The translations under genes were made by a program, and so were the position numbers. This document shows, one piece after another, positions 874-16,214 of a stretch of 64,000 nt of DNA. Origin of the DNA: Corallococcus macrosporus DSM 14697 (GTDB lineage Bacteria; Myxococcota; Myxococcia; Myxococcales; Myxococcaceae); contig NZ_CP022203.1 of assembly GCF_002305895.1 (NCBI RefSeq), positions 6,172,001 through 6,236,000 on the forward strand, written 5' to 3'. Position 1 is the stretch's first letter. Each line of letters begins with the position of its first letter. The notes beneath the pieces are model-generated. The model saw only the letters and a program-made list of their open reading frames with translations. It was not told the origin of the DNA and ran no database searches.

Positions 874-1953
874 TCAGTCCAGCGCGTCCACCCACGTCCG
901 CAATCGTGGCTCCAACTGCGCCTCACCGCGAACACCGGGCTCCGCGTCCAGGGGCAGCGTGTGGAAGCCACGCGCCGCCAATCCCTTGCACATCTCCGCG
1001 CGGACCTGCGCATCCGGCGCGAACAGGATGCAGCCGTCCCCGCCGCCCGCGCCGGACAGCTTGCCCGCCGCGCCGTACGTGGCAGCCAGCGCCAACACGC
1101 GCCGCATGCCCTCCGTCTCCAGCGGCCCCAGCTCCAACAGCAGCGCGTGCTGCGCCTTCACGGCCTCGGAGAAGGCCCGGAAGTCACCGCCGCTCAGCCC
1201 GTCCTCAATCGAGTGGCCCAGCGTGTCCGAGCGCTCCACGAAGCTCCGGCGGCCCGCCTCCTCCAGCCGGGCCTCCACCTGGCCAATCAGCACCCGCGTC
1301 GAGGCGCTCTCGCCCGTGAAGGCATACGCCATGGACACCCGGGGCAAAGGCAACCGCCACACGTCCACCGACGGAGACTCCGCCAGCGCCGCGCGCAACC
1401 GGCCGCTGTTGCTCGCCTCAATCAAGGGCGCCACGTCGTAGCGCCGGTAGCGCAGCACGCCTCCGGCGAAGCTCGTCGCCACATCCCCGCCGCTGCCCTT
1501 CCCGCCCTGCCCCAGCGTGTGCGCCAGCAGCGCCAGCTTCAGCGCGTCGTAGCGCTCCTCCAGCACGTAGCGCACGCCCTCCGCCGCCAGCACCGTCGCG
1601 CACGCACTGCCGCCCATGCCCAGCTTCTGTCCATTCGGCCCCACCGCGGACGGCGCCACCGCCAGGTCAAAGCCCTGGCTCGCCCGGCCATGCGCCCGCA
1701 GGGCCTCATCCAGCGCCCGCGCCACGAAGGCGAACCCCGCCGGCACGTCCCGCGCCCAGCGCACGCCCAGCGGCGTGGTGCTCCCCGCCAGCGTCCCCTC
1801 CTCCAGGCACACGTGCACACGGGCATCCGCGCGGCGACGGACGTACGCGGCGGTGCGCGGCGCCACCGCGGCCAGGCGCGCCACCCCGCCCCACAGCACG
1901 GCGTACTCGCCGGAGAGGAACAGCTTGCCCGGCGCGGAGAGGGCGCGCTCCAT
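874..1953 (-). CDS. mvaK2: Phosphomevalonate kinase (GHMP family)
   Basis: A 359-residue GHMP-fold kinase. The N-terminal strand APGKLFLSGEYAVL is the usual GHMP opening. The phosphate-binding loop is KLGMGGSACATV, and the motif QGGKGSGGDVATSFAGG (near 168-184) is the phosphomevalonate-kinase version of the second conserved block. The C-terminal loop KLSGAGGGDG completes the fold. It should phosphorylate 5-phosphomevalonate to the diphosphate in the cytosol, feeding MvaD. Its ATG overlaps the mvaD stop by one base (TGATG), so the two are translationally coupled. It is the last gene of the five-gene mevalonate operon. The family is less certain than its neighbours because GHMP kinases diverge, but position and motifs agree. 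Confidence 0.88.
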   Translation of the reverse strand: MERALSAPGKLFLSGEYAVLWGGVARLAAVAPRTAAYVRRRADARVHVCLEEGTLAGSTTPLGVRWARDVPAGFAFVARALDEALRAHGRASQGFDLAVAPSAVGPNGQKLGMGGSACATVLAAEGVRYVLEERYDALKLALLAHTLGQGGKGSGGDVATSFAGGVLRYRRYDVAPLIEASNSGRLRAALAESPSVDVWRLPLPRVSMAYAFTGESASTRVLIGQVEARLEEAGRRSFVERSDTLGHSIEDGLSGGDFRAFSEAVKAQHALLLELGPLETEGMRRVLALAATYGAAGKLSGAGGGDGCILFAPDAQVRAEMCKGLAARGFHTLPLDAEPGVRGEAQLEPRLRTWVDALD

Positions 1954-2951
1954 CAGAAGAGGTGCTCCGCCTTCAGCTCCGCATCACCGCCGGGCACGCA
2001 GCGAATCACCTCCACCGCGCCACACGCGCGGGCCAGCGCCTCCGCGGCCACCTCGTGCGCGGCGTCCGTCAGCAGCACCGGGTTGGGCCCCGCGTCCAAC
2101 GTGAACCACACCGGGATGCCCTTCTTGCGCTGCTCCTTCAGGTGCTGGATGAGCGCCAGCGTGCCGGGGCTCATGTAGCTCAGCGGCGGATTCGCGGCGA
2201 AGGACGTCGCGTGCATCCGCCACGCGTTGCGCTCACACAGCTCGCCCAGGGCCTGCAGGTCGCGCTTCGCGATGTGCTCACGCACCTGCACCACCTCCGC
2301 CTCCGCGTCCTTCACCCACGCCGGGTAGTACGGGCTGGTGTCCACCGTGTGCTTCATCCCGTCCCGCGACTTCACCTCTTTCTCGCCGCGGTCGATGATC
2401 GCCACCACCATGCGCAGGTCCGGCCAGTGGGCCGCGTCGAAGCGCTGCACCGCGAAGCTGTCCTCGCCATCCGGACGCTCGCCGCGCTGCCACTCACAGA
2501 AGCCGCCCTGCACGCTCCGGCACGCGGAGCCGCTGCCCAGCCGCGCCAGGATGCTGGCCGCGCGAGGCTCCGACGGCAGCCCCGCCGCCGCGCGCCCCGC
2601 CACCGCCAGCGCCGCGAAGCCCGCCGCGCTGCTGGCCAGCCCCGCCGCCATGGGGAAGTCCCCGCGCGACACCACCTTCGCGGGCCCCAGGTCGGCCTTC
2701 GCCTGGGCGCGCACCGTCTCCAGCAGGCGCAGCACGCGGTCGCGCTCGCTGCCCTTCGCGGTGTGGCCGTTGAGCTCCACCTGGTCGCTCGCGGCGCCGA
2801 ACTCCACCGTGGTCGTCACCGACAGCGGCGACAGCGTGAGGGACAGGCTGGACTGATGCGGAAGAATCAGCGCGTCATCCCGCTTCCCCCAGTACTTCAC
2901 CAGGGCGATGTTGGGATGCGCCAGTGCTGTGGCTTTCATGGGAAGACTCAC
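1953..2951 (-). CDS. mvaD: Diphosphomevalonate decarboxylase
   Basis: 332 residues. The opening AHPNIALVKYWGKRD is the signature of diphosphomevalonate decarboxylase, followed by the Ser-rich SSLSLTLSPLSVTTTV strand and the ATP-loop block AAGLASSAAGFAALA. It carries out the ATP-dependent decarboxylation of mevalonate diphosphate to isopentenyl diphosphate. The GTG at 2951 overlaps the mvaK1 stop as GTGA. An ATG four codons further in (2939) is an alternative start. Length is normal for the family. It sits between mvaK1 and mvaK2 with no intergenic space, so it must be co-transcribed with them. Confidence 0.95.
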   Translation of the reverse strand: MSLPMKATALAHPNIALVKYWGKRDDALILPHQSSLSLTLSPLSVTTTVEFGAASDQVELNGHTAKGSERDRVLRLLETVRAQAKADLGPAKVVSRGDFPMAAGLASSAAGFAALAVAGRAAAGLPSEPRAASILARLGSGSACRSVQGGFCEWQRGERPDGEDSFAVQRFDAAHWPDLRMVVAIIDRGEKEVKSRDGMKHTVDTSPYYPAWVKDAEAEVVQVREHIAKRDLQALGELCERNAWRMHATSFAANPPLSYMSPGTLALIQHLKEQRKKGIPVWFTLDAGPNPVLLTDAAHEVAAEALARACGAVEVIRCVPGGDAELKAEHLF

Positions 2952-3916
2952 GACGCCCGCGGACCCGCGAGCTGGCTGCTGAAGCAGCGCACGCCCATCC
3001 GGCGGAGCTTCGTCACCACCGGCTTGGGCTCGAGGAACAGGCCGATGACGGCCCCACCATCTCCACCCGCTCCGGTCAGCTTGGCGCCCAGCGCCCCCAG
3101 CTCCCGGAGCCGGTAGACCATCTCTTCCAGCGGCGGCGACGACAGGCCCAGCGCCGCCAGCAGGCCCTGGTTGACGTTCATCGCGTCACCCAGCGCCTCC
3201 AAATCACCCGCCGCCACCGCCTTCGCGCCCTCCGTGGACACCCGTCCGATTTCCGTGAACAGGCGCTCGTAGCGCGACGGCCAGCGCGCCTGCCGCTCAC
3301 GCAGCGCGCCCACCGTCTTCTTCGTGGGGCTGCGCTCACCCGCGAGCGTCACCACCACGTGCAGCGGCCTGGGGCTGTCCACCACCTGCCCCGTGCCCTT
3401 GGCCGCCCCCGGCTTGCGCCGGTAGAGGACAAGCTGCTCCATCGCGCTCGTCGTGTGGTCCAACCCCGACGGCGCGCCGTGGAACTCCTGCTCCATGGCC
3501 CACGCCACGCGCACCGCGTCCTTGTGCGAGGGCTCCGCCCCCGCCGCCTGGAGCAGCAGCCGCGCGCACGCCACCGACAGGGCCGCCGAGCTCCCCAACC
3601 CCACCGCCAGCGGCAGGTCCGCCTCCAGCGACACCTTCACCGGCGGCGCGCCCGTCACCTCCGCGGCGCGGGCGAACGCCGCCGTGAGCTGCGCCCGCTG
3701 CGGGCGGCTCAACGTGGCCGGAAGCGAGAGCTGACACGACTTCGCGGGAACGGCACGCGCCGTCACGCCCTGCGACAAGGGCCCGGCCAGGGCCGGGTGC
3801 CCGTACACGACGCTGTGCTCACCCAACAGGATGACCTTGCCGGCGCCAAAGGCCGACAAGGATTCAGTGCGAGGAGCCACGGCGTCAGACGTTGGTGCCG
3901 GTCGCGGCCGCGGCAT
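2948..3916 (-). CDS. mvaK1: Mevalonate kinase
   Basis: A 322-residue GHMP kinase with FGAGKVILLGEHSVVYGHPA at the N-terminus, the mevalonate kinase form of the first motif, including the Glu-His pair. It also has the ATP loop PLAVGLGSSAALSVA and the C-terminal KLTGAGGDGGAV. It phosphorylates mevalonate at C5. The ATG at 3916 lies inside the 3' end of mvaA (32-bp overlap). A GTG at 3880, just after the mvaA stop, is an alternative start and would lose only a Pro-rich non-conserved N-terminus. The downstream gene mvaD overlaps it by four bases. Confidence 0.93.
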   Translation of the reverse strand: MPRPRPAPTSDAVAPRTESLSAFGAGKVILLGEHSVVYGHPALAGPLSQGVTARAVPAKSCQLSLPATLSRPQRAQLTAAFARAAEVTGAPPVKVSLEADLPLAVGLGSSAALSVACARLLLQAAGAEPSHKDAVRVAWAMEQEFHGAPSGLDHTTSAMEQLVLYRRKPGAAKGTGQVVDSPRPLHVVVTLAGERSPTKKTVGALRERQARWPSRYERLFTEIGRVSTEGAKAVAAGDLEALGDAMNVNQGLLAALGLSSPPLEEMVYRLRELGALGAKLTGAGGDGGAVIGLFLEPKPVVTKLRRMGVRCFSSQLAGPRAS

Positions 3917-5213
3917 CCTCGGCGGGGAGGGCGGCCAGCAGTTCGCGGGCCTTCTCCACCTTCACGTGGCCCGCCTTCACCAGCAGGTTGGCGATCTTCT
4001 CCACCCAGTCGCCCCGCGCGCCCGCCGTCACCGCCACGCAGCGCGCGTGCATCGCCATGTGGCCCTTCTGGATGCCCACGCTGCCCAGCGCCCGGAGCGC
4101 CGCGAAGTTCTGCGCCAGACCCACCGCCGCGATCACCATGGCCAGCTCGCGCACCGTGGTGGTCTGCATCAGCTTGAGCGCCATCTGCACGCCCGGGTGG
4201 ATCTTGATGGGCCCGCCCACCGTGCCCAGCGCCATGGGCAGCTCGATGCGGCCCACCAGGTGCCCCTCCTCCAGGTACCAGGTGGACAGCGGCCGGTACT
4301 GCCCGTTGCGGCAGGCGAACGCGTGCGCGCCCGCTTCAATGGCGCGCCAGTCCTGCCCCGTGGCGATGGCCACCGCGTCGATGCCGTTCATCACGCCCTT
4401 GTTGTGCGTGGCGGCGCGGTACGGGTCGGCCTCCGCGAAGCGGCTCGCCTGGGCGATGCCCTCGGCGATCTCCTCGGCCGGCATCTCGAAGTCCGCCAGC
4501 AGCGGGATGGGGATGCGGCACATGGCCCGCGCCAGCCGGCGGTCCGCCAGGTTGGAGAGGATGCGCAGATACACCTTGCCACCCGTCACCTGCTCGACGA
4601 GCGGCGCCACGCCCTCCGCCATGGTGTTGATGAGGTTGGCCCCCATCGCCTCCTGGGCGTCGATGATGAGGTGGACGATGAGCAGCGGCTCGCCGCGCGG
4701 GCCCTCGGGGGCCGGCAGCACGCGCACCTCCACGTCCTTGGCCCCACCGCCCCGCGCGACCATCGCCGGGTGGAAGCTGTTGGCCAGCGCGAGGATCTGC
4801 TCCTTGTGCGCCAGGATGCGCTCGGTGGCCACCGTCGGGTCGCCGTAGCGCGACACCTGCACCTGGCCAATCATCAGCGACGGGTCCGCCTCGCCAATGA
4901 AGCCGCCCGCCTCCCGGACGATCTTCGCCGCGAAGGACACCGCCGCCACCACGGACGGCTCCTCCACCGCCATGGGCACCAGGTAGTCGCGCCCGTTGAC
5001 CTGGAGGTTCAGCCCCAGGCCCAGCGGCAGGGAGAAGGTCCCCACCGCGTTCTCAATCATCTGGTTCGCCAGGACAGGCTGGAGCGCCTCCGAGCCCAGG
5101 AGCTGCTGCAGGTCCTCGGGCGTGAGCCGGAACATGCGGGAGAGGTGCGCGTGGCGCTCCTCCATCGGCAGCTTGTGGAACCCGGGAAGCCGGGACGTCA
5201 CGGTGTCAGACAT
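3885..5213 (-). CDS. mvaA: Hydroxymethylglutaryl-CoA reductase, class II
   Basis: A 442-residue class II HMG-CoA reductase. Visible motifs are LPGFHKLPMEERHAHL near the N-terminus, ENAVGTFSLPLGLGLN, the catalytic Glu in AVEEPSVVAA, DAQEAMGANLINT, the Lys in NKGVMNGIDAVA, and a late His (GHMAMHAR) at the usual position. It reduces HMG-CoA to mevalonate and commits carbon to isoprenoids. The start at 5213 (MSDTVT) is preceded by a strong GGAAGGAAG ribosome binding site. An in-frame ATG ten codons upstream lacks one. It is the second gene of the operon, 33 bp after fni. The enzyme that makes HMG-CoA, MvaS, is not in this window. Confidence 0.96.
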   Translation of the reverse strand: MSDTVTSRLPGFHKLPMEERHAHLSRMFRLTPEDLQQLLGSEALQPVLANQMIENAVGTFSLPLGLGLNLQVNGRDYLVPMAVEEPSVVAAVSFAAKIVREAGGFIGEADPSLMIGQVQVSRYGDPTVATERILAHKEQILALANSFHPAMVARGGGAKDVEVRVLPAPEGPRGEPLLIVHLIIDAQEAMGANLINTMAEGVAPLVEQVTGGKVYLRILSNLADRRLARAMCRIPIPLLADFEMPAEEIAEGIAQASRFAEADPYRAATHNKGVMNGIDAVAIATGQDWRAIEAGAHAFACRNGQYRPLSTWYLEEGHLVGRIELPMALGTVGGPIKIHPGVQMALKLMQTTTVRELAMVIAAVGLAQNFAALRALGSVGIQKGHMAMHARCVAVTAGARGDWVEKIANLLVKAGHVKVEKARELLAALPAEDAAAATGTNV

Positions 5214-5246
5214 GTTCTTCCTTCCAGACTTCGGCGCGGCCACCCT

Positions 5247-6305
5247 CTACAGCGCCGCCAACCAATCCTTCAACTCTCCGGTGACCACCCGGGGCCGCTG
5301 TCCCAGTTCAGCGCAGCTTCTGCTTCCCGTCAGGACCAGCGCCTGACGCAGCCCGGCCAGGATGACCTCCAGCGCCGCCTCCGCCGCGGGGAGACCGCCC
5401 GCCTGCTGCGCGCGGAACAGCGGCAGCGCCATGCCGGCCAGGTTCGCGCCCAGCGCCAGCACCTTGGCGGCGTCCAGCCCCGTGCGCAGGCCGCCGCTCG
5501 CCACCAGGTGGACGTCCGGGCCCACGGCGCGCCGCACGGTCGCCAGGGCCGCCGCCGTGGGGATGCCCCACGCGCTGAACTCCGCGCCCACCTGGGCCTG
5601 TACGCCCGAGGCGCGAAGTTGTTCCACGCGCACCCAGGACGTCCCGCCCAGGCCGGACACGTCGATGTTCCGCACGCCCAGGTCCACCAGCCGCCGCGCG
5701 ACGTCCGGGCCAATGCCGCAGCCCGTCTCCTTCACCAGCAGCCGGTCACCGAAGGCGCGCACCAGCAGCTCCACCACGCGGTAGCCGCCCCGGAAGTCCC
5801 GGTCGCCTTCCGGCTGCGTCAGCTCCTGGCCCGCGTTGAGGTGCAGCGCCAGCCCGTCCGCGCCAATGCCGTCCACCAGCCGCCGCGTTCCGTCCACGCC
5901 CAGCCGGATGGCCTGGAACATGCCGATGTTGCCCAGGAGCGCCACCGTGGGCGCCACCTGCCGCACCTGGAAGGAGGCCGTCCGAGCGGCGTCCTCCGAC
6001 ATGGCGCGCTGGCTCCCCACGCCGAAGGCCAGGCCATGACGCTCGGCGAGCTGCGCCAGGTCGCGGTTCACCGCCCCCGCGCGCTCCGTGCCGCCCGTCA
6101 TCCCGGTGACGAGCAACGGGTAGCGCAGCCGCTTGCCCAGGAACGGCGTGGACAGGTCCACGTCCTCCACGGACAGCTCCGGCATCGCGCAGTGAACCAG
6201 CTTCACGCACTCCAGGAGGGTGCTGTTCCCCGAGGGCTCGACGTCACCCGTGGCGCAAAGGTCGAGATGCGCGTCCTTGCGTCTGGCTGTGATGTCATCG
6301 CCCAT
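5247..6305 (-). CDS. fni: Isopentenyl-diphosphate delta-isomerase, type 2 (FMN-dependent)
   Basis: 352 residues from the ATG at 6305. The type 2 isomerase features are an N-terminal RRKDAHLDLC (the family RK-x-x-H pattern), TGMTGGTERAGAVNRDLA, GVGSQRA, the glycine-rich FMN/phosphate-binding segments VKETGCGIG and DVSGLGGTSW, and the C-terminal SGGLRTGLDAAKVLALGA. It interconverts isopentenyl and dimethylallyl diphosphate using reduced FMN. The open frame extends further upstream, but that part is low-complexity antisense-like sequence and the family normally begins at this Met. It is the first gene of the mevalonate operon, divergent from a DsrE-like gene across about 150 bp that must hold the operon promoter. 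Confidence 0.94.
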   Translation of the reverse strand: MGDDITARRKDAHLDLCATGDVEPSGNSTLLECVKLVHCAMPELSVEDVDLSTPFLGKRLRYPLLVTGMTGGTERAGAVNRDLAQLAERHGLAFGVGSQRAMSEDAARTASFQVRQVAPTVALLGNIGMFQAIRLGVDGTRRLVDGIGADGLALHLNAGQELTQPEGDRDFRGGYRVVELLVRAFGDRLLVKETGCGIGPDVARRLVDLGVRNIDVSGLGGTSWVRVEQLRASGVQAQVGAEFSAWGIPTAAALATVRRAVGPDVHLVASGGLRTGLDAAKVLALGANLAGMALPLFRAQQAGGLPAAEAALEVILAGLRQALVLTGSRSCAELGQRPRVVTGELKDWLAAL

Positions 6306-6458
6306 CTCGCTGGAGTCCGGTCCGCCCTGGGGAGGGAAAGCGCGTAAGTGCCTGAATGGCCGAAGTTTCCTAGCAAGCACGGCGGCCAAGGCGCAAGCCA
6401 AAGGACCCCGGTCGGTCGGTGCGGGAGTGTGGGTGGACGCTGACGGCTGGTGGGCGGT

Positions 6459-6911: not shown

Positions 6912-9419
6912 TCAGATGCCCAGCTTGACGCCCACGATGACGGTCCGCGGCGCGTTGGGCCGGGCGCCGTAGGGGCGGCGCGACACGATGGCCTGCTCGT
7001 CCAGGATGTTGCGAGCGCTCAGGTAGAGCTGCCCCCAGCGGGAGAAGTGCCAGCTCGCGTTGACGTCGAAGGTCAGCAGCGCGTCCGTCAGCTCGCCCGG
7101 GGGCGCCTCGCCCTGCCCCGCCCTCTCGCGCATGGCGTCCACGTAGAAGGCGCTCAGGGCCAGGCCGCCCCAGGCCGTCTCCACGCCCGCGGTGGCGTAG
7201 AGCTGGTGCCGGGGCACGTAGGGCAGCTCGTCGCCCGCGCGCACGTTGCCGAACTGCGGGTCCGCGGACTGGAAGGCCTCGCGCAGCCGCGTGCGCGTGA
7301 AGGTGTAGGACAGCGACACGGGGAACGTCACCCCGCCGCCCGGGCGGAAGGTCTTCTCGCCGAAGACCTCCAGGCCGTAGATGTACGCCTTGCCCGCGTC
7401 CGTCTGCCGGTCCAGGTCGTCGTTGAGGCAGCCGCTGGAGAAGGTGCAGATGTCGGTGAGGTTGGAGTAGTCGTTGAAGAAGCCCACCGCCTCCAGCCGC
7501 TCGCCCCGGCGCGTCCACCGGGCGCCCGCCTCGTAGTTGATGCTCTTCTCCGGCAGCACCGCGTCCGGCTGTCCGGGCGCGGGCGGCGAGAAGCCGCGGT
7601 AGGCCCCGGCGAACAGGCCCAGCTCGCGCGTCAGCGCCCCGTAGACGCCCATGCCCGGCATGAGCACCTCCAGCGCGCCATGGGACTCGGCGCCCGTCAG
7701 GCGGTTCGAGGACTCGGAGCGGATGATCTCCAGCCGCACGCCCGGCGTCAGCACCAGGGGGCCCCAGCCGATGGCGTCCGTCGCGTGCAGGGCGACGGCG
7801 TGCGTGGCGTCCTTGTTGTCGGCCGTGGTGTACGTGGGCTCGCTGGTCCGCACGAGCTGGCCGCCCTGCATGAGGAAGGCGTCCTCGGTGTGGAGGCGGC
7901 GGATGCGGTCGTAGTGGAAGCGCGCGCCCAGCTCGAGGTTGTGGCTCAGCGACCCGGTGTTCGTCGTCCAGCGGGCGATGCTCTGGAGGCCCTGGGACAC
8001 GTAGGTGCGGTCGTTGGGGCCGATGAGCAGCGCGTCCTGGGCCGACGCCGTGTCCAGCTCGCCGGTGAGCACGCCGTAGTAGATGGCGTTGCGCGCGCTC
8101 GTGGGGTCCGCCAGCACGCTGGCGATGGAGGCGCCGCGGAAGCGGTTCACCTTGCGCCACGCCCGGCTCAGGTCCTGCCGGTAGACGGACGTCGTCACGG
8201 CCAGCCCGCCCGCTTCGAGTTCGTGGCTGAGCACCACCTGCGTGCGGTGCCACTTCATGTGGTCCAGGGCGCTGGCGACGTAGCGGCGCAGCGGCGCGGC
8301 GGCGAAGTCCGCGTCGCTCAGGCCCAGGTACGTCTCGTTCGAGTCCTCGTCCGAGTAGCCCAGCTTGAGCTGGAGCGTCTGGCGCACCGGCCCTTCCGGG
8401 ACGAGCTGGTAGCGGCCCTTGGCCATCCACTCGTTGCGGGTGAAGCCCGTGTCGCCGCCCACGGTGTCCAGCTCCTTGAAGCCGTCACTGCGCAGGTGGA
8501 CGCCCTCCAGCAGGAAGCCCGCGCGCTCGGTGCTGGCGCCGAAGACGCCGTGGGCCTTGCCGTAGAGGTACTCGCCGCCCGCCACGTCCAGCCACGCCGT
8601 CTCCGACGCGGGGATGTCCCGGGTGATGAACTCCACGGAGCCGCCCACCGTCTGCGGCCCCTGCTGGATGGCCGAGGGCCCCTTCAGCACGCGGATGCTC
8701 TGCATGCGCGTGGCCAGCGGGAAGTAGTAGGCCGCCGGCGCGGAGTACGGCGCCGGGCCGAAGAGGATGCCGTCCTCCAGCAGGGTGACCTTCTTGGCGC
8801 GGTCCGGGTTGACGCCGCGCAGGCCCACGTTCGGGCGCAGGCCGAAGCCGTCCTCGCCACGGGAGTACACGCCAGGCACCGTCTGGAGGATGGCGGCCGG
8901 GTCATCGCGCTCGAAGCGCTCCAGCTGCGCGGGCTTCAGGACGTGGATGGAGCCGCTGGTGCGCGCCTCCGACGTGCCCACCACCACGCTCTCGAACTTC
9001 TTCTCCACCCGCTCCGGCGAGGGTTCGAGTACCAGCGGCTCGCTCGCGGCGGCGAGGGGAGCGTCGCTCGCGGGCGCCTCCTCGGTGGCGGCCAACGGTG
9101 GCTCCGGCGCGGCGGCGACGTCGGGGGCGGCCAGCGGTGGCTCCGGCGCGGCGGCGACGTCGGGCGTTTGCGCCGTGTCCGACGCGGCTGCGGTGTCCTG
9201 CGCCGGCGGCGACTCGGGAACCCCGGCGGCGGCGTCCTGCGCCGGCGGCGACTCTGAAACCCCGTTGGCGGCGTCCTGCGCCAGCGACGGTTCGGGAACC
9301 CCGGCGCCGTCATCCTGGGGCGGCTCGGACTGTGCCGCGGCCGGAGAGGCCCATGTCAGCAAGAGCGCCGGAACCGTCCAGCTCCGCGCCCGCATCCACT
9401 TCTGCTCGAACAGTGCCAT
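6912..9419 (-). CDS. TonB-dependent outer membrane receptor, FecA-like
   Basis: 835 residues. A signal peptide (Trp/Leu-rich core ending SPAAAQ, about residues 12-30) is followed by about 110 residues of Ala/Pro/Glu-rich low-complexity repeats. Then come a TonB-box-like ESVVVGTS (about 142-149) and the plug domain, with PAAILQTVPGV, PNVGLRGVNP, LLEDGILFGPAPY, IRVLKGPSAIQQGP and TVGGSVEFITR. The rest is a 22-stranded-barrel-type C-terminal part ending with a hydrophobic residue. Such receptors import ferric siderophores, ferric citrate or other scarce ligands through TonB energy. It lies downstream of the delta-60 lipoprotein on the same strand, close to two Fur-like operators, which favours an iron ligand. 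The hairpin at 9446-9499 could partly separate the two transcripts. Confidence 0.9.
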   Translation of the reverse strand: MALFEQKWMRARSWTVPALLLTWASPAAAQSEPPQDDGAGVPEPSLAQDAANGVSESPPAQDAAAGVPESPPAQDTAAASDTAQTPDVAAAPEPPLAAPDVAAAPEPPLAATEEAPASDAPLAAASEPLVLEPSPERVEKKFESVVVGTSEARTSGSIHVLKPAQLERFERDDPAAILQTVPGVYSRGEDGFGLRPNVGLRGVNPDRAKKVTLLEDGILFGPAPYSAPAAYYFPLATRMQSIRVLKGPSAIQQGPQTVGGSVEFITRDIPASETAWLDVAGGEYLYGKAHGVFGASTERAGFLLEGVHLRSDGFKELDTVGGDTGFTRNEWMAKGRYQLVPEGPVRQTLQLKLGYSDEDSNETYLGLSDADFAAAPLRRYVASALDHMKWHRTQVVLSHELEAGGLAVTTSVYRQDLSRAWRKVNRFRGASIASVLADPTSARNAIYYGVLTGELDTASAQDALLIGPNDRTYVSQGLQSIARWTTNTGSLSHNLELGARFHYDRIRRLHTEDAFLMQGGQLVRTSEPTYTTADNKDATHAVALHATDAIGWGPLVLTPGVRLEIIRSESSNRLTGAESHGALEVLMPGMGVYGALTRELGLFAGAYRGFSPPAPGQPDAVLPEKSINYEAGARWTRRGERLEAVGFFNDYSNLTDICTFSSGCLNDDLDRQTDAGKAYIYGLEVFGEKTFRPGGGVTFPVSLSYTFTRTRLREAFQSADPQFGNVRAGDELPYVPRHQLYATAGVETAWGGLALSAFYVDAMRERAGQGEAPPGELTDALLTFDVNASWHFSRWGQLYLSARNILDEQAIVSRRPYGARPNAPRTVIVGVKLGI
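9080..9330 (-). repeat. In-frame Ala/Pro/Glu-rich repeats in the TonB receptor N-terminus
   Basis: The DNA encoding receptor residues of about 30-113 contains short imperfect tandem repeats. One unit encodes AAPEPPLAAPDV and occurs twice back to back. Another encodes GVPESPPAQDAA with variants and occurs three to four times. The encoded stretch is disordered, acidic and proline-rich, lying between the signal peptide and the TonB box. It may act as a periplasmic tether. Repeat slippage should make its length vary between strains. Confidence 0.7.
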
Positions 9420-11048: not shown

Positions 11049-11063
11049 CGATAATCGTTATCA
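11049..11063. promoter_or_regulatory. Fur-box-like operator 1
   Basis: The 15-bp sequence CGATAATCGTTATCA matches the 7-1-7 Fur motif TGATAAT-N-ATTATCA at 12 of 14 arm positions. It is also the core of AACGAT-A-ATCGTT, a perfect 6-1-6 inverted repeat. It lies 40 bp from the delta-60 lipoprotein start and 135 bp from the imelysin start. A/T-rich operators stand out strongly in this GC-rich genome. It would repress both divergent units under iron sufficiency. Confidence 0.72.
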
Positions 11064-11156: not shown

Positions 11157-11171
11157 TGATTGTCATTAACA
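11157..11171. promoter_or_regulatory. Fur-box-like operator 2
   Basis: TGATTGTCATTAACA matches the 7-1-7 Fur motif at 11 of 14 arm positions and lies 27 bp before the imelysin ATG. It is embedded in a larger inverted repeat, GAAGTTG (11152-11158) and CAACTTC (11170-11176). With operator 1 it frames the divergent promoter region of the delta-60/TonB receptor and imelysin/gamma-carboxylase-like units. Confidence 0.55.
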
Positions 11172-11197: not shown

Positions 11198-12430
11198 ATG
11201 AACTCCGAGTCGTCACGCCCCCACTCCGCCCTTCGCGCGAGCGCCATCGCGCTCGTGGTTCCCGCGCTCCTCTCGCTGTCCGCGTGCAAGTCGGACAAAC
11301 CGGCGCCACCGGACGCGGGCGCGCCCGACGACACCGTGGCCGCGACGCGGGCCGCGCTGCTGGAAGCGTCCGGCGCCTGCGTCCTGCAGACGGCGCGTGA
11401 ATTCCAGACGGCGGCCGCCGCGCTGGACGACGCCGTCAAGGCGCACGCGGCCACGCCGGACGCCACCACGCGGGACGCCGCGCGCGCGGCCTACCACGCG
11501 GCCATGGACGTATGGCAGGTGGCGGAGGTGATGCAGTTCGGGCCCGCGGCGCCTCGCAGCGTGCCGGGTGGCGCGGAGCATCGCGACAACATCTATTCGT
11601 GGCCGCTGGTCAGCCGGTGCGCCGTCGAGGAGCAGGTCGTCAACCGCAGCTACGCGTCGGAGTCCTTCGAGACGTCGCTGGTGAGCCGCCGCGGCCTGTA
11701 CGCGCTGGAGTACCTGCTCTTCTTCGAGGGCAACGACACCGCCTGCCCCGGCACCTCCGCCATCGTGTCCCAGGGCACGTGGGCGGCGCTGTCCGAGGAC
11801 GAGCGGGCCGCGCGCAAGCGGGCGTACGCCGCCGTGGTGGCCGCCGACGTCCACCGCCGCGCGGACGCGCTGGTGAGCGCGTGGGCCGCCGACCAGGGCA
11901 ACTTCACCCAGACGCTGACGACGGCCGGCTCCGGCAACGACGTGTACCCCTCCACGCAGGCGGCGCTGAACGCCATGAGCGACGCCATCTTCTACCTCGA
12001 GCGCGAGGTGAAGGACCTCAAGCTGGCGCGCCCGCTGGGGATGCGTGAGTGCGCCACGTCCACCTGCCCCGAGCACCTGGAGTCGCAGTTCGCGGCGCGC
12101 TCGAAGACGAACCTCCGCGCCAACCTGGTGGGCTACCGCCGCCTCACGGAGGGCTGCGGCGAGGACTTCTCCGGCACCGGCTTCGACGACCTGCTGGAGG
12201 CCTCGGGCGCGGACGCCCTGGCGGCCAGGCTGCGCGAGCGCAACGCGGCGGCGGCGGCGGGCATCGAGGCCCTCCCGGGCGAGGACGTGGCGACCCTCCT
12301 GGCCCAGGACAAGGCCGCGGTGCGGACCCTGTACGACGCCGTCAAGGGCGTGACGGACGTCCTCAAGACGGAGCTCGTCACCGTGCTGGACCTGGAGCTG
12401 CCCCAGTCCGTCGAGGGGGACAATGACTGA
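11198..12430 (+). CDS. Imelysin-family lipoprotein
   Basis: 410 residues from the ATG at 11198. A TTG 16 codons upstream would put a non-signal sequence before the signal peptide and would overlap operator 2. The signal peptide ends in the lipobox LSAC. The imelysin core is recognisable: VMQFGPAAPRSVPGGAEHR, then DNIYSWPLVSRCAVEEQV, RRGLYALEYLLFF and the long helical C-terminal half. Imelysins are helical periplasmic or surface proteins frequently regulated by Fur and linked to iron uptake (EfeO relatives). The classical GxHxxE motif appears as GLYALE, with Tyr replacing His, so the metal-binding site is altered. The next gene overlaps it by 8 bp, which couples their translation. Confidence 0.85.
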   Translation: MNSESSRPHSALRASAIALVVPALLSLSACKSDKPAPPDAGAPDDTVAATRAALLEASGACVLQTAREFQTAAAALDDAVKAHAATPDATTRDAARAAYHAAMDVWQVAEVMQFGPAAPRSVPGGAEHRDNIYSWPLVSRCAVEEQVVNRSYASESFETSLVSRRGLYALEYLLFFEGNDTACPGTSAIVSQGTWAALSEDERAARKRAYAAVVAADVHRRADALVSAWAADQGNFTQTLTTAGSGNDVYPSTQAALNAMSDAIFYLEREVKDLKLARPLGMRECATSTCPEHLESQFAARSKTNLRANLVGYRRLTEGCGEDFSGTGFDDLLEASGADALAARLRERNAAAAAGIEALPGEDVATLLAQDKAAVRTLYDAVKGVTDVLKTELVTVLDLELPQSVEGDND

Positions 12431-13877
12431 GGTGGCGCCAGGCGCGCGTTCCGCCTCCGCACGCCTCTGGCAAGCGCTGCTGGCGCCGCGAGACCTCGCG
12501 GCGCTGGTGGCGTTCCGCGTGGCGCTCGGGCTGCTCGTCACCGTGTCAGCGGTCCGGTTCCTCGCCTACGGCTGGGTGGACGTGCTGTTCACCGGCCCCC
12601 GCTTCCACTTCACCTACTGGGGCTTCGGCTGGGTGCCCGCGCTGCCGGCGCCCTGGATGCACGCCGTCTTCGCGGCGCTCGCGGTGCTCGGGCTCTGCAT
12701 GGCGGCGGGCCTCTTCTACCGCGTGGCGGTGGCGCTGCTGTTCGTCACCTTCACCTACGTCCAGCTCGTGGACGTCAGCAACTACCTCAACCACTACTAC
12801 CTGGTGAGCCTGCTGCTGGGGCTGATGCTCTTCGTCCCGGCCCATCGCGGCTTCTCCGTGGATGCGTGGCGCACCCCGGCGCTGCGGAGCGACTGGCTGC
12901 CGGCGTGGTGTACGTGGTTGCTGCGCTTCCAGGTCGGCGTGGTCTACGTGTTCGCCGGACTGGCGAAGCTCACCAGCGACTGGCTGGTGCATGCCCAGCC
13001 GCTCAACATCTGGCTGTCGGCGCGGACGAGCCTCCCCGTGGTGGGGCCGCTGCTCGCCGAGCGCTGGGTGGCCTACGCGGCGGCGTGGTCGGGCTTCCTG
13101 TTCGACACCTTCATCGTCGCCTGCCTCCTCACGCGGAAGCTGCGGCCCTTCGCCTACGTCGTCGTCATCGGGTTCCACGCGGCCACCTCCGCGCTGTTCC
13201 CCATCGGGATGTTCCCCGTCATCATGGTCACCGGCGCGCTCGTGTTCTTCGAGCCGTCCTGGCCACGGCGCCTGTTCCAGGGGCTGCGCACCCGCTTCGC
13301 CCGGGTGGCCGCCGCGGCCGAGCCGCCCGCTGAACCGGCCTCGCCCCTGGCACCGGGAGCCCCCGGCTGGAAGGCCCGGGCGGCCCTGGGACTGGCCGTG
13401 GCCTACGCCGTCGTCCAGGTCGCCGTGCCCCTCCGGACGCACCTGTATGGTGGCAACGTGCTGTGGCACGAGCAGGGCATGCGCTTCTCGTGGCGGGTGA
13501 TGGCGCGCGAGAAGAACGGCAGCGTGACGTTCATCGTCCGCGACCCGGCGTCGGACCGGGAGTGGCACGTCACGCCCACCCAGTACCTCACCCGCCTCCA
13601 GGAGCGGGAGATGTCGGTGCAGCCGGACCTCATCCTCCAGCTCGCGCGGCACATCGCCCGGGACTTCGAGGCACGGGGCAAGGGCCGGGTCCAGGTGCAC
13701 GTCGACGCCCTGGTGTCGCTCAACGGCCGGCCCGCGGAGCGCCTGGTGGACCCCGACGTGGACCTCGCCCAGGAGGTGGACGGACTGGCGCCCAAGCGGT
13801 GGATCCGCCCCGCGCCGGACACGCCGCCCGTCCGCCTGCGCTCTCCGCTCCGCGGGGCCACGGCCGAGCGGCTGTAG
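12423..13877 (+). CDS. HTTM-domain protein, vitamin-K-dependent gamma-carboxylase homologue
   Basis: 484 residues. The N-terminal two thirds hold several hydrophobic membrane segments between about 25 and 285. The soluble C-terminal part (about 345-465) contains WHEQGMRFSWRVM, a beta-rich segment, and VSLNGRPAERLVDPDVDL. That last block matches the pattern S-x-N-x-R-x-x-x-R-x-x-D-P-x-V-D of the animal enzyme. His124 (LNHYY) and Lys182 (AGLAKLTSDW) align without a gap with human GGCX His160 and Lys218, with 58 residues between them in both. The animal enzyme carboxylates protein glutamates using vitamin K hydroquinone. The bacterial substrate and quinone are unknown. The ATG lies inside the imelysin stop region (8-bp overlap), so the two proteins are made together, probably under Fur. 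Confidence 0.85.
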   Translation: MTEVAPGARSASARLWQALLAPRDLAALVAFRVALGLLVTVSAVRFLAYGWVDVLFTGPRFHFTYWGFGWVPALPAPWMHAVFAALAVLGLCMAAGLFYRVAVALLFVTFTYVQLVDVSNYLNHYYLVSLLLGLMLFVPAHRGFSVDAWRTPALRSDWLPAWCTWLLRFQVGVVYVFAGLAKLTSDWLVHAQPLNIWLSARTSLPVVGPLLAERWVAYAAAWSGFLFDTFIVACLLTRKLRPFAYVVVIGFHAATSALFPIGMFPVIMVTGALVFFEPSWPRRLFQGLRTRFARVAAAAEPPAEPASPLAPGAPGWKARAALGLAVAYAVVQVAVPLRTHLYGGNVLWHEQGMRFSWRVMAREKNGSVTFIVRDPASDREWHVTPTQYLTRLQEREMSVQPDLILQLARHIARDFEARGKGRVQVHVDALVSLNGRPAERLVDPDVDLAQEVDGLAPKRWIRPAPDTPPVRLRSPLRGATAERL

Positions 13878-15188: not shown

Positions 15189-16214
15189 GTGCTGGTCCTG
15201 GTCCTCGCCCTTGCTGTCGGGCTCGCCATCTCGCTCTATTTCAATCTCTTCGCCGGCCCCAAGCACGCCGCGCTCCCCTCGTCGGCCGCGTCGTCGTCGC
15301 CCCGCGCCGAGCTGGTGACGGACACCCAGGCGCGCGCCAAGGCCGAGGCGGAGCTCCAGCGCAAGCAGAAGGAGCTGGATGAGCAGCGCTCTCAACTTCA
15401 GGACGTGAAGGAGCAGCTCAAGCAGGCCAAGCGGAAGCTGTACGAGCAGAAGGAATCCGACAAGGGCGCGCAGGAGCTGGCCAAGGCGCGCGCCGAGGTG
15501 GAGCGCAGCGCCTCCACGCAGCTCGAGCGGACCCGCGAGGAGCTGTCCCACGCGCTGGTGGAGAACCAGCGGCTGAAGTCGGAGCTGGAGTCCAAGGGCC
15601 GCCGGCCGCAGCCCGCGCCGGCCGCGCCCGCTCCCACCGCCGCGCCCGCGCAGGTCGCCGCGCCCGCCCAGGAGGGTGAGGCCGTCGTCGCCGCGGTGGT
15701 GCCCGTGGTGGCCACGACGACGGAGGCGGCGCCGCAGGAGCGCCGCCAGCGCGTGTACCGCGAGCTGAACGACGCGGACCGCGAGAAGATGGAGCGGCTG
15801 GAGCAGGCCGCCACCAAGGACCGCAACCGCGCGGCGGAGCTGGAGAAGGAGCTGCGCCGGGTGAAGGGCCGCAACGAGACGCAGCAGCGCGTCTACGCCG
15901 CCACCAAGCACGACCTGGACCTGAGCCGCGACAAGTACAAGGCCTTGGAGAAGCGCCTCAACCGCACGCTCCTGGAGCGCGACCTGCTCCGCCGGGCCAT
16001 CAAGGACCTGGAGAAGAAGACGGGCATGCTCGCCGACCGCACGGAGCTGACGCCCGAGGAGGTCGCCGCCAGCGACCAGCGCACCGAGGAGACCTCGCGC
16101 GTGCGCGCCGAGGACGAGGGCCAGGCCACCAAGGCGGAGGCCCCGGCCGACACCGAGCAGCAGGCCCCCGAGAGCGCCCCGGCCGACGCCGAGACGAAGC
16201 CCGCGCAGGCCTGA
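15189..16214 (+). CDS. Membrane-anchored coiled-coil protein, function unknown
   Basis: 341 residues starting at a GTG at 15189, which has GGAGG eight bases upstream. No other start in the frame has a comparable site. A single N-terminal membrane segment (about residues 2-22, VLVLALAVGLAISLYFNLF) leads into a charged coiled coil (about 50-145). A Pro/Ala linker (about 147-185) and a second coiled coil (about 195-285) follow, then an acidic tail rich in Ala, Glu and Pro. The layout suggests an inner-membrane-tethered cytoplasmic scaffold. No enzymatic motif is visible. It is convergent with the MarR gene and separated from it by a strong hairpin. Confidence 0.8.
   Translation: MLVLVLALAVGLAISLYFNLFAGPKHAALPSSAASSSPRAELVTDTQARAKAEAELQRKQKELDEQRSQLQDVKEQLKQAKRKLYEQKESDKGAQELAKARAEVERSASTQLERTREELSHALVENQRLKSELESKGRRPQPAPAAPAPTAAPAQVAAPAQEGEAVVAAVVPVVATTTEAAPQERRQRVYRELNDADREKMERLEQAATKDRNRAAELEKELRRVKGRNETQQRVYAATKHDLDLSRDKYKALEKRLNRTLLERDLLRRAIKDLEKKTGMLADRTELTPEEVAASDQRTEETSRVRAEDEGQATKAEAPADTEQQAPESAPADAETKPAQA

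Follow-up and report, generated by a model that had tools for sequence, protein, structure and literature searches.

In the genome analysed here (8.97 Mb, one contig), the only imelysin and the only HTTM/VKGC-family membrane protein are encoded by two adjacent, overlapping genes, and the locus that contains them is very probably an iron-regulated uptake module whose parts are functionally linked. The pair is accompanied by genes for a secreted lipoprotein and a TonB-dependent receptor, lies downstream of a Fur-box-like site and is conserved in several bacterial phyla. To our knowledge, the role of the bacterial homologues of the vitamin K carboxylase has been open since they were first noticed; the constant coupled partner, the iron-regulated uptake context and a candidate acceptor motif found here make the target of such an enzyme directly testable.

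Gene order, Fur-like sites and conservation

The features of the locus are given in Table 1, with positions in the window, i.e. the whole stretch of 64,000 nucleotides that was analysed; gene calls outside the window were made in the present analysis. The genes for the delta-60 lipoprotein and the TonB receptor are transcribed divergently from the imelysin-HTTM pair. The earlier note had described the 8-bp overlap of an imelysin lipoprotein with a VKGC-like protein, the divergent delta-60/TonB unit and two Fur-box-like sites in the shared intergenic region, and all of these were confirmed. The receptor gene product is also matched by the NCBIfam FecA/TonB-siderophore models in a profile search, below their cut-off. 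No di-haem peroxidase (DUF1111/EfeB) is encoded among the genes neighbouring the imelysin, and the genome lacks a second imelysin. No RNA element reaches the Rfam gathering thresholds between window positions 9000 and 14500, and the intergenic region contains no sigma-70 or terminator consensus. Beyond the receptor gene, a mevalonate-pathway cluster is located on the minus strand (874-6308), which comprises two kinase-like genes, a diphosphomevalonate-decarboxylase-like gene, an ORF resembling IPP isomerase and an HMG-CoA reductase gene (PF00368, 1.5e-107); in one distant locus (L131), the imelysin is also preceded by two genes of this kind, one mevalonate-kinase-like and one decarboxylase-like. 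ARAGORN called a tRNA-Trp on the minus strand at 15545-15621, within a long coding ORF of the opposite strand, and this call is possibly spurious.

Table 1. Features of the imelysin-HTTM locus (positions in the window)
Feature	Position	Strand	Basis
TonB-dependent outer-membrane receptor, FecA/siderophore-receptor-like, 835 aa	6912..9419	-	PF00593 6e-28, PF07715 2e-12
Delta-60 repeat lipoprotein, 492 aa	9531..11009	-	TIGR02608 E 1.2e-81, six repeats
Fur-box-like site CGATAATCGTTATCA, 40 nt 5' of the delta-60 gene	11049..11063		13/15 to 7-1-7 consensus TGATAATCATTATCA
Fur-box-like site TGATTGTCATTAACA, 27 nt 5' of the imelysin ATG	11157..11171		12/15 to 7-1-7 consensus
Imelysin (M75 superfamily) lipoprotein, IPPA/PA4372 type, 410 aa	11198..12430	+	Pfam PF09375 (Peptidase_M75) E 3.5e-34
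Lipobox LSAC, Cys30, Lys at +2	11276..11287	+	Sequence
Imelysin C-terminal acidic tail E-G-D-N-D, D408 and D410 invariant	12413..12427	+	Alignment of partners
8-bp start/stop overlap imelysin/HTTM, ATGACTGA	12423..12430	+	Sequence; translational-coupling geometry
HTTM/VKGC-family membrane protein, 484 aa	12423..13877	+	PF05090 (HTTM) 6.5e-79, PF22777 (VKGC lumenal domain) 4.4e-46
N123-H124, equivalent to GGCX N159-H160 (substrate carboxylate and quinone pocket)	12789..12794	+	Conserved 81/81
K182, equivalent to GGCX K218 (catalytic base); preceding residue Ala where human K217	12966..12968	+	Conserved 81/81

The site upstream of the delta-60 gene contains GATAATCGTTATC as an exact match, and for GATAATNNTTATC with up to two mismatches, the expected number of occurrences across the whole window is 0.17. 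In 1000 shuffles of the intergenic region, the score of the first site was never reached (0/1000), and the same holds for the second (0/1000). Among relatives, Fur-like sites are present in 10 of 12 divergent intergenic regions, with two sites kept in nine of the 12, and their sequences drift while the consensus stays constant; in other taxa, 15 of 35 loci have Fur-like sites ahead of their first gene, versus 0 of 35 control stretches. The combination of a TonB receptor with Fur-type operator-like sites points to a Fur-regulated TonB uptake locus.

Table 4 of a study on Riemerella anatipestifer lists RAYM_09779-09794, which encode a TBDR, a VKGC, an imelysin lipoprotein and a hypothetical protein in a row, as upregulated in low iron with values of 2.1-3.1 (PMC5609570). 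The run shares with the present module these four components and the iron/Fur-responsive listing; it appears in that paper as table rows, which do not discuss its function, chemistry or conservation. Since the iron response is given in the same source as persisting in the fur mutant, direct Fur control is not clean in Riemerella. By analogy, this listing suggests an iron response of the present locus, and together with the Fur-like sites in 10/12 and 15/35 regions against none of 35 controls it lends good support to the iron-responsive envelope system that had been proposed. Searches of the literature retrieved no paper that combines HTTM and imelysin, only the Riemerella paper for VKGC, TonB receptor and iron, and none that discusses the function of the four-gene set. 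The earlier statement that no pathway of this kind has been described holds for these searches, although the gene set itself is present in the Riemerella regulon table. Each of the families is known, whereas in the literature searched we found no earlier description of the four-gene module, of its breadth, or of a substrate side that is remodelled and goes with a recurrent Asp-bearing partner.

Conservation of the gene pair was surveyed in the 80 closest HTTM loci of GTDB species genomes, which, going by record titles, span Myxococcota, Gammaproteobacteria, Bdellovibrionota, Bacteroidota, Rhodothermia and Chloroflexota. An imelysin gene lies immediately upstream on the same strand in 79 of them, with an overlap of exactly 8 bp in 32 and of 14 bp in 13 of these 79 loci. 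A TonB receptor cluster is found in 71 of the 80 and a delta-60 or DUF4856 lipoprotein in 60 (one locus has both), the delta-60 cluster being present in 40 loci and a DUF4856 lipoprotein instead in 20 others. In a second arrangement, imelysin-DHOR-imelysin-HTTM, the HTTM gene is added to an operon of the P. aeruginosa ICMP type. Two further surveys, which were not picked by similarity, agree with this result: in 195 Myxococcota genomes, an imelysin is found within 500 bp of 65 out of 84 full-length HTTMs and within 1.3 kb of four more, and in 148 Bacteroidota genomes 30 of 40 lie beside an imelysin, with adjacency counted by reading tables. Among 140 sampled Pseudomonadota, a full-length HTTM was found in one genome only, and imelysin pairs are common. 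Chance adjacency was rejected on the basis of the 79/80 loci and the Myxococcota survey; the survey of imelysin-HTTM adjacency that the earlier note had called for gives very strong support to conservation of the pair, far outside the myxobacteria. One contig labelled Comamonas sp. KCTC 72670 (L053) shares about 85% identity and the gene order with the Myxococcus locus and probably derives from an assembly that is mislabelled or contaminated. In a separate clade of Bacteroidota HTTMs (L147-L152), the HTTM gene is located behind a RibF-like gene of about 310 aa and usually ahead of a serS-like gene.

The HTTM protein compared with human GGCX

Sequence, fold and catalytic residues all identify the HTTM protein as a true homologue of GGCX, which fits the membrane carboxylase-like enzyme that had been proposed. 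Human GGCX is matched along the length of the protein at 8e-38 (phmmer), and GGCX structures align to its AF2 model (pLDDT 93.5) with Z-scores of 26.6-30.8 in 15 of 16 matched chains; with a Z-score of about 30, the alignment extends across 434 residues at 26% identity and covers the transmembrane and the first lumenal domain. The roles of quinone-binding and base residues of GGCX are known from cryo-EM, according to which H160 and N159 hold the substrate carboxylate and K217 of the human enzyme couples substrate binding (PMC12589487). The equivalents of N159, H160, A214, K218, D222, W223, F286, F299 and W399 are invariant in all 81 bacterial sequences compared, and the fold, the catalytic K218/H160/N159 and the quinone pocket are shared with the human enzyme. 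VKOR co-occurrence was rejected as proof of epoxide recycling, as almost all genomes of the family have VKOR, whether HTTM is present or not.

The substrate side differs from that of GGCX. The position of K217 is occupied by Ala in 81/81 bacterial HTTMs, Y395 and R436 on the glutamate side are replaced mostly by Met and by Glu, respectively, as is also the case in the present protein, and the propeptide contact Y425 is variable. The protein (484 aa versus 758 in GGCX) ends near human residue 527, with the alignment stopping at 507-528, and lacks the later propeptide-binding/exosite region and the Arch domain; its partner is a lipoprotein, whereas that of human GGCX is a propeptide-Gla protein. 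Four residues, R338, E350, R354 and K364, are invariant in the bacterial sequences, the first three being specific to bacteria, and mark a substrate side different from that of GGCX. As far as the conserved positions indicate, the quinol/base half of the enzyme is intact and the substrate half remodelled. Since K217, Y395/R436, the propeptide exosite and the Arch domain are not kept, the protein lacks the substrate-side features of a propeptide-directed gamma-carboxylase of the GGCX type. The gamma-carboxylation of Glu that the earlier note had envisaged finds no support in these positions, and the recurrent acidic residue of the partners is Asp.

The imelysin and its acidic tail

Instead of the GxHxxE motif, the imelysin carries GxxxxE (G166LYALE171), which is a trait of the IPPA/PA4372 family as defined by Xu et al. 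2011 (PMC3143127). Its AF2 model (pLDDT 92) is matched in Foldseek by 7xrx, 4ecg and 3pf0, the latter with a TM-score of 0.80 by target length. The Fur-linked imelysin loci of P. aeruginosa (ICMP operon PA4370-PA4373) and EfeUOB are among the closest known systems (Xu et al. 2011, PMC3143127), and the PA4372-type imelysin described here keeps an acidic C-terminus, as does 3pf0, which ends in STDGD. In contrast to ICMP/Efe, the present locus contains an HTTM protein and a TonB receptor in place of a di-haem DUF1111 enzyme or second imelysin; hybrids of the two systems are the imelysin-DHOR-imelysin-HTTM operons. Lysine at position +2 is typical of lipoproteins retained in the inner membrane of M. 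xanthus (PMC3222651), and because of its Lys at +2 the imelysin is predicted to remain in the inner membrane next to the enzyme.

Only three columns, G319, D408 and D410, are invariant in an alignment of 62 HTTM-linked imelysins, and both aspartates lie within the C-terminal tail. Among the nearest partners, 78 of 79 tails contain D-[NTDS]-D, often followed by GD, and the exception looks like a frameshifted copy. A D-[not G]-D ending occurs in 78/79 nearest partners versus 1/206 and 2/240 background genes, although tails and loci are homologous and these counts are not independent of each other; both hits among the 240 are non-imelysin proteins encoded directly upstream of other HTTMs. Gene overlap was rejected as the cause of tail conservation, as D-x-D persists at gaps of -374 to +155 bp. 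The motif was also rejected as a diagnostic of HTTM: in the 22 Pseudomonadota genomes fetched, IPPA imelysins have a DGD ending although HTTM is lacking, and D-x-D is kept in five module imelysins without an adjacent HTTM, all five near a TBDR and from genomes that show no full-length HTTM. Because of these HTTM-free tails, and because in an independent sample of Bacteroidota 10 of 26 partners have no more than DGD at their end, the acidic tail seems to be an imelysin family trait, which HTTM may exploit but did not create.

Proposed chemistry and its alternatives

From the observed gene order, homology, catalytic residues, operator-like sites and conservation, we infer the enzyme activity, the target, the site and the ligand as follows. 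The locus would be one copy of an ancient iron-repressed outer-membrane uptake module, whose components are the IPPA-type imelysin lipoprotein, the VKGC/HTTM enzyme of the inner membrane, the TonB-dependent receptor and a secreted lipoprotein that is either a delta-60 propeller or a DUF4856 protein; Myxococcus has the corresponding genes in two divergent units under the two Fur-like sites, with imelysin and enzyme translationally coupled. With its active site facing the periplasm, the enzyme would consume menaquinol, O2 and CO2 and form a strong base by epoxidation at K182, which would drive carboxylation of an acidic residue on the co-translated partner, most likely the imelysin, while both are located at the periplasmic face of the inner membrane. 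The carboxylation would create or improve a hard-metal (iron) site needed for transfer between this partner and the TonB receptor, in either direction. As candidate site we regard the D-x-D tail at the exposed C-terminus of the imelysin, and carboxylation would thus concern Asp rather than Glu.

Taken as a whole, this explanation is the best one available, but it is held tentatively. That the enzyme performs quinol-dependent VKGC chemistry is probable. Modification of the imelysin is our best guess and not a finding, and we give it a little less than an even chance; it is suggested by the coupling geometry, the +2 Lys, the invariant D408 and D410, the tail bias and the HDDDDDG neighbours of orphan HTTMs described below. 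The C-terminal tail is the best candidate for the site but rather unlikely to be the actual one; its acidic character is not specific to HTTM. The loss of K217, Y395, R436 and the propeptide site of GGCX, together with the early end of the protein, counts against this explanation.

In a rival reading, the HTTM protein does not carboxylate proteins but acts as a quinol epoxidase or redox enzyme, coupling menaquinol oxidation to a step needed for uptake, such as ferric reduction or the oxidation of a ligand or protein; the imelysin would then be the metal carrier. In such an enzyme, the quinone pocket and base would be kept and the glutamate-side and propeptide residues lost, just as is the case here, and in ICMP-type operons a di-haem oxidoreductase replaces or accompanies the system. 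The bacterial VKGC homologue of Leptospira, VKG, is reported to epoxidise but not to carboxylate. The same genus possesses an imelysin-DHOR-imelysin operon, which is induced by low iron (PMC7567364). However, the equivalents of H160 and N159, by which GGCX holds the carboxylate of its substrate, are invariant, and the bacteria-specific R338, E350 and R354 suggest that a polar substrate pocket is retained; we consider this reading unlikely, with perhaps one chance in a few.

It is improbable that the enzyme acts on the delta-60/DUF4856 lipoprotein or the TonB receptor and that the imelysin is merely an operon neighbour. Receptor (71/80) and lipoprotein (60/80) are conserved, and in one lineage (L131) DUF4856 even sits between imelysin and HTTM; however, the lipoprotein type switches, the receptor is missing from ICMP-type HTTM operons and neither shares an acidic motif at its C-terminus, whereas an imelysin gene is present almost without exception and is directly coupled. 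A small molecule or peptide ligand, such as a siderophore-like carboxylate that the locus imports or exports, would suit the FecA-like receptor and the altered substrate pocket, but recurring biosynthetic genes are absent from the loci, and such a target has a low probability. Least probable is a module that imports another metal or cofactor, with iron merely as regulator and HTTM as a non-catalytic folding or stability factor for lipoproteins: imelysin biochemistry is unsettled (Xu et al. 2011), but the catalytic residues are invariant over phyla, and the operator-like sites and the iron response listed for Riemerella speak against it.

Returning to carboxylation of the imelysin, finding the modification would tie bacterial post-translational carboxylation to metal acquisition and give the chemistry of the human clotting enzyme a counterpart in soil bacteria. 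It is tempting to speculate that bacterial HTTM enzymes are menaquinol-dependent aspartyl carboxylases, which install beta-carboxyaspartate on Asp tags and thereby build metal sites, here for iron uptake. This broader idea is unlikely as it stands; if true, it would provide the first assigned role for the VKGC family in bacteria, and vitamin K-dependent Gla formation would have a counterpart that acts on Asp. Candidate tags may be the C-terminal D-x-D of the imelysin and the SDFD/SDSDSD tails and HDDDDDG arrays of co-encoded secreted proteins. Small secreted Cys proteins that end in GGGGGSDFD and GGGSDSDSD are encoded immediately upstream of HTTM genes that have no imelysin. In two genomes, an orphan HTTM adjoins a secreted protein with about ten HDDDDDG repeats, whose gene holds 9/12 and 8/11 of the genome-wide HDDDDDG codings, respectively; the remaining occurrences are on other secreted proteins, partly as C-terminal tags.

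The small Cys proteins with a Gly-rich linker and a C-terminal SDFD or SDSDSD are located in L139, L140 (4834-5484) and L142 (4450-5442). The HDDDDDG(GGGG) arrays or tags are carried by unrelated secreted proteins in L137 (5871-8438), L138 (1566-5555), L235, L236 and L237, which belong to two genomes of the family Myxococcaceae with an orphan HTTM and possibly have an Asp tag in common.
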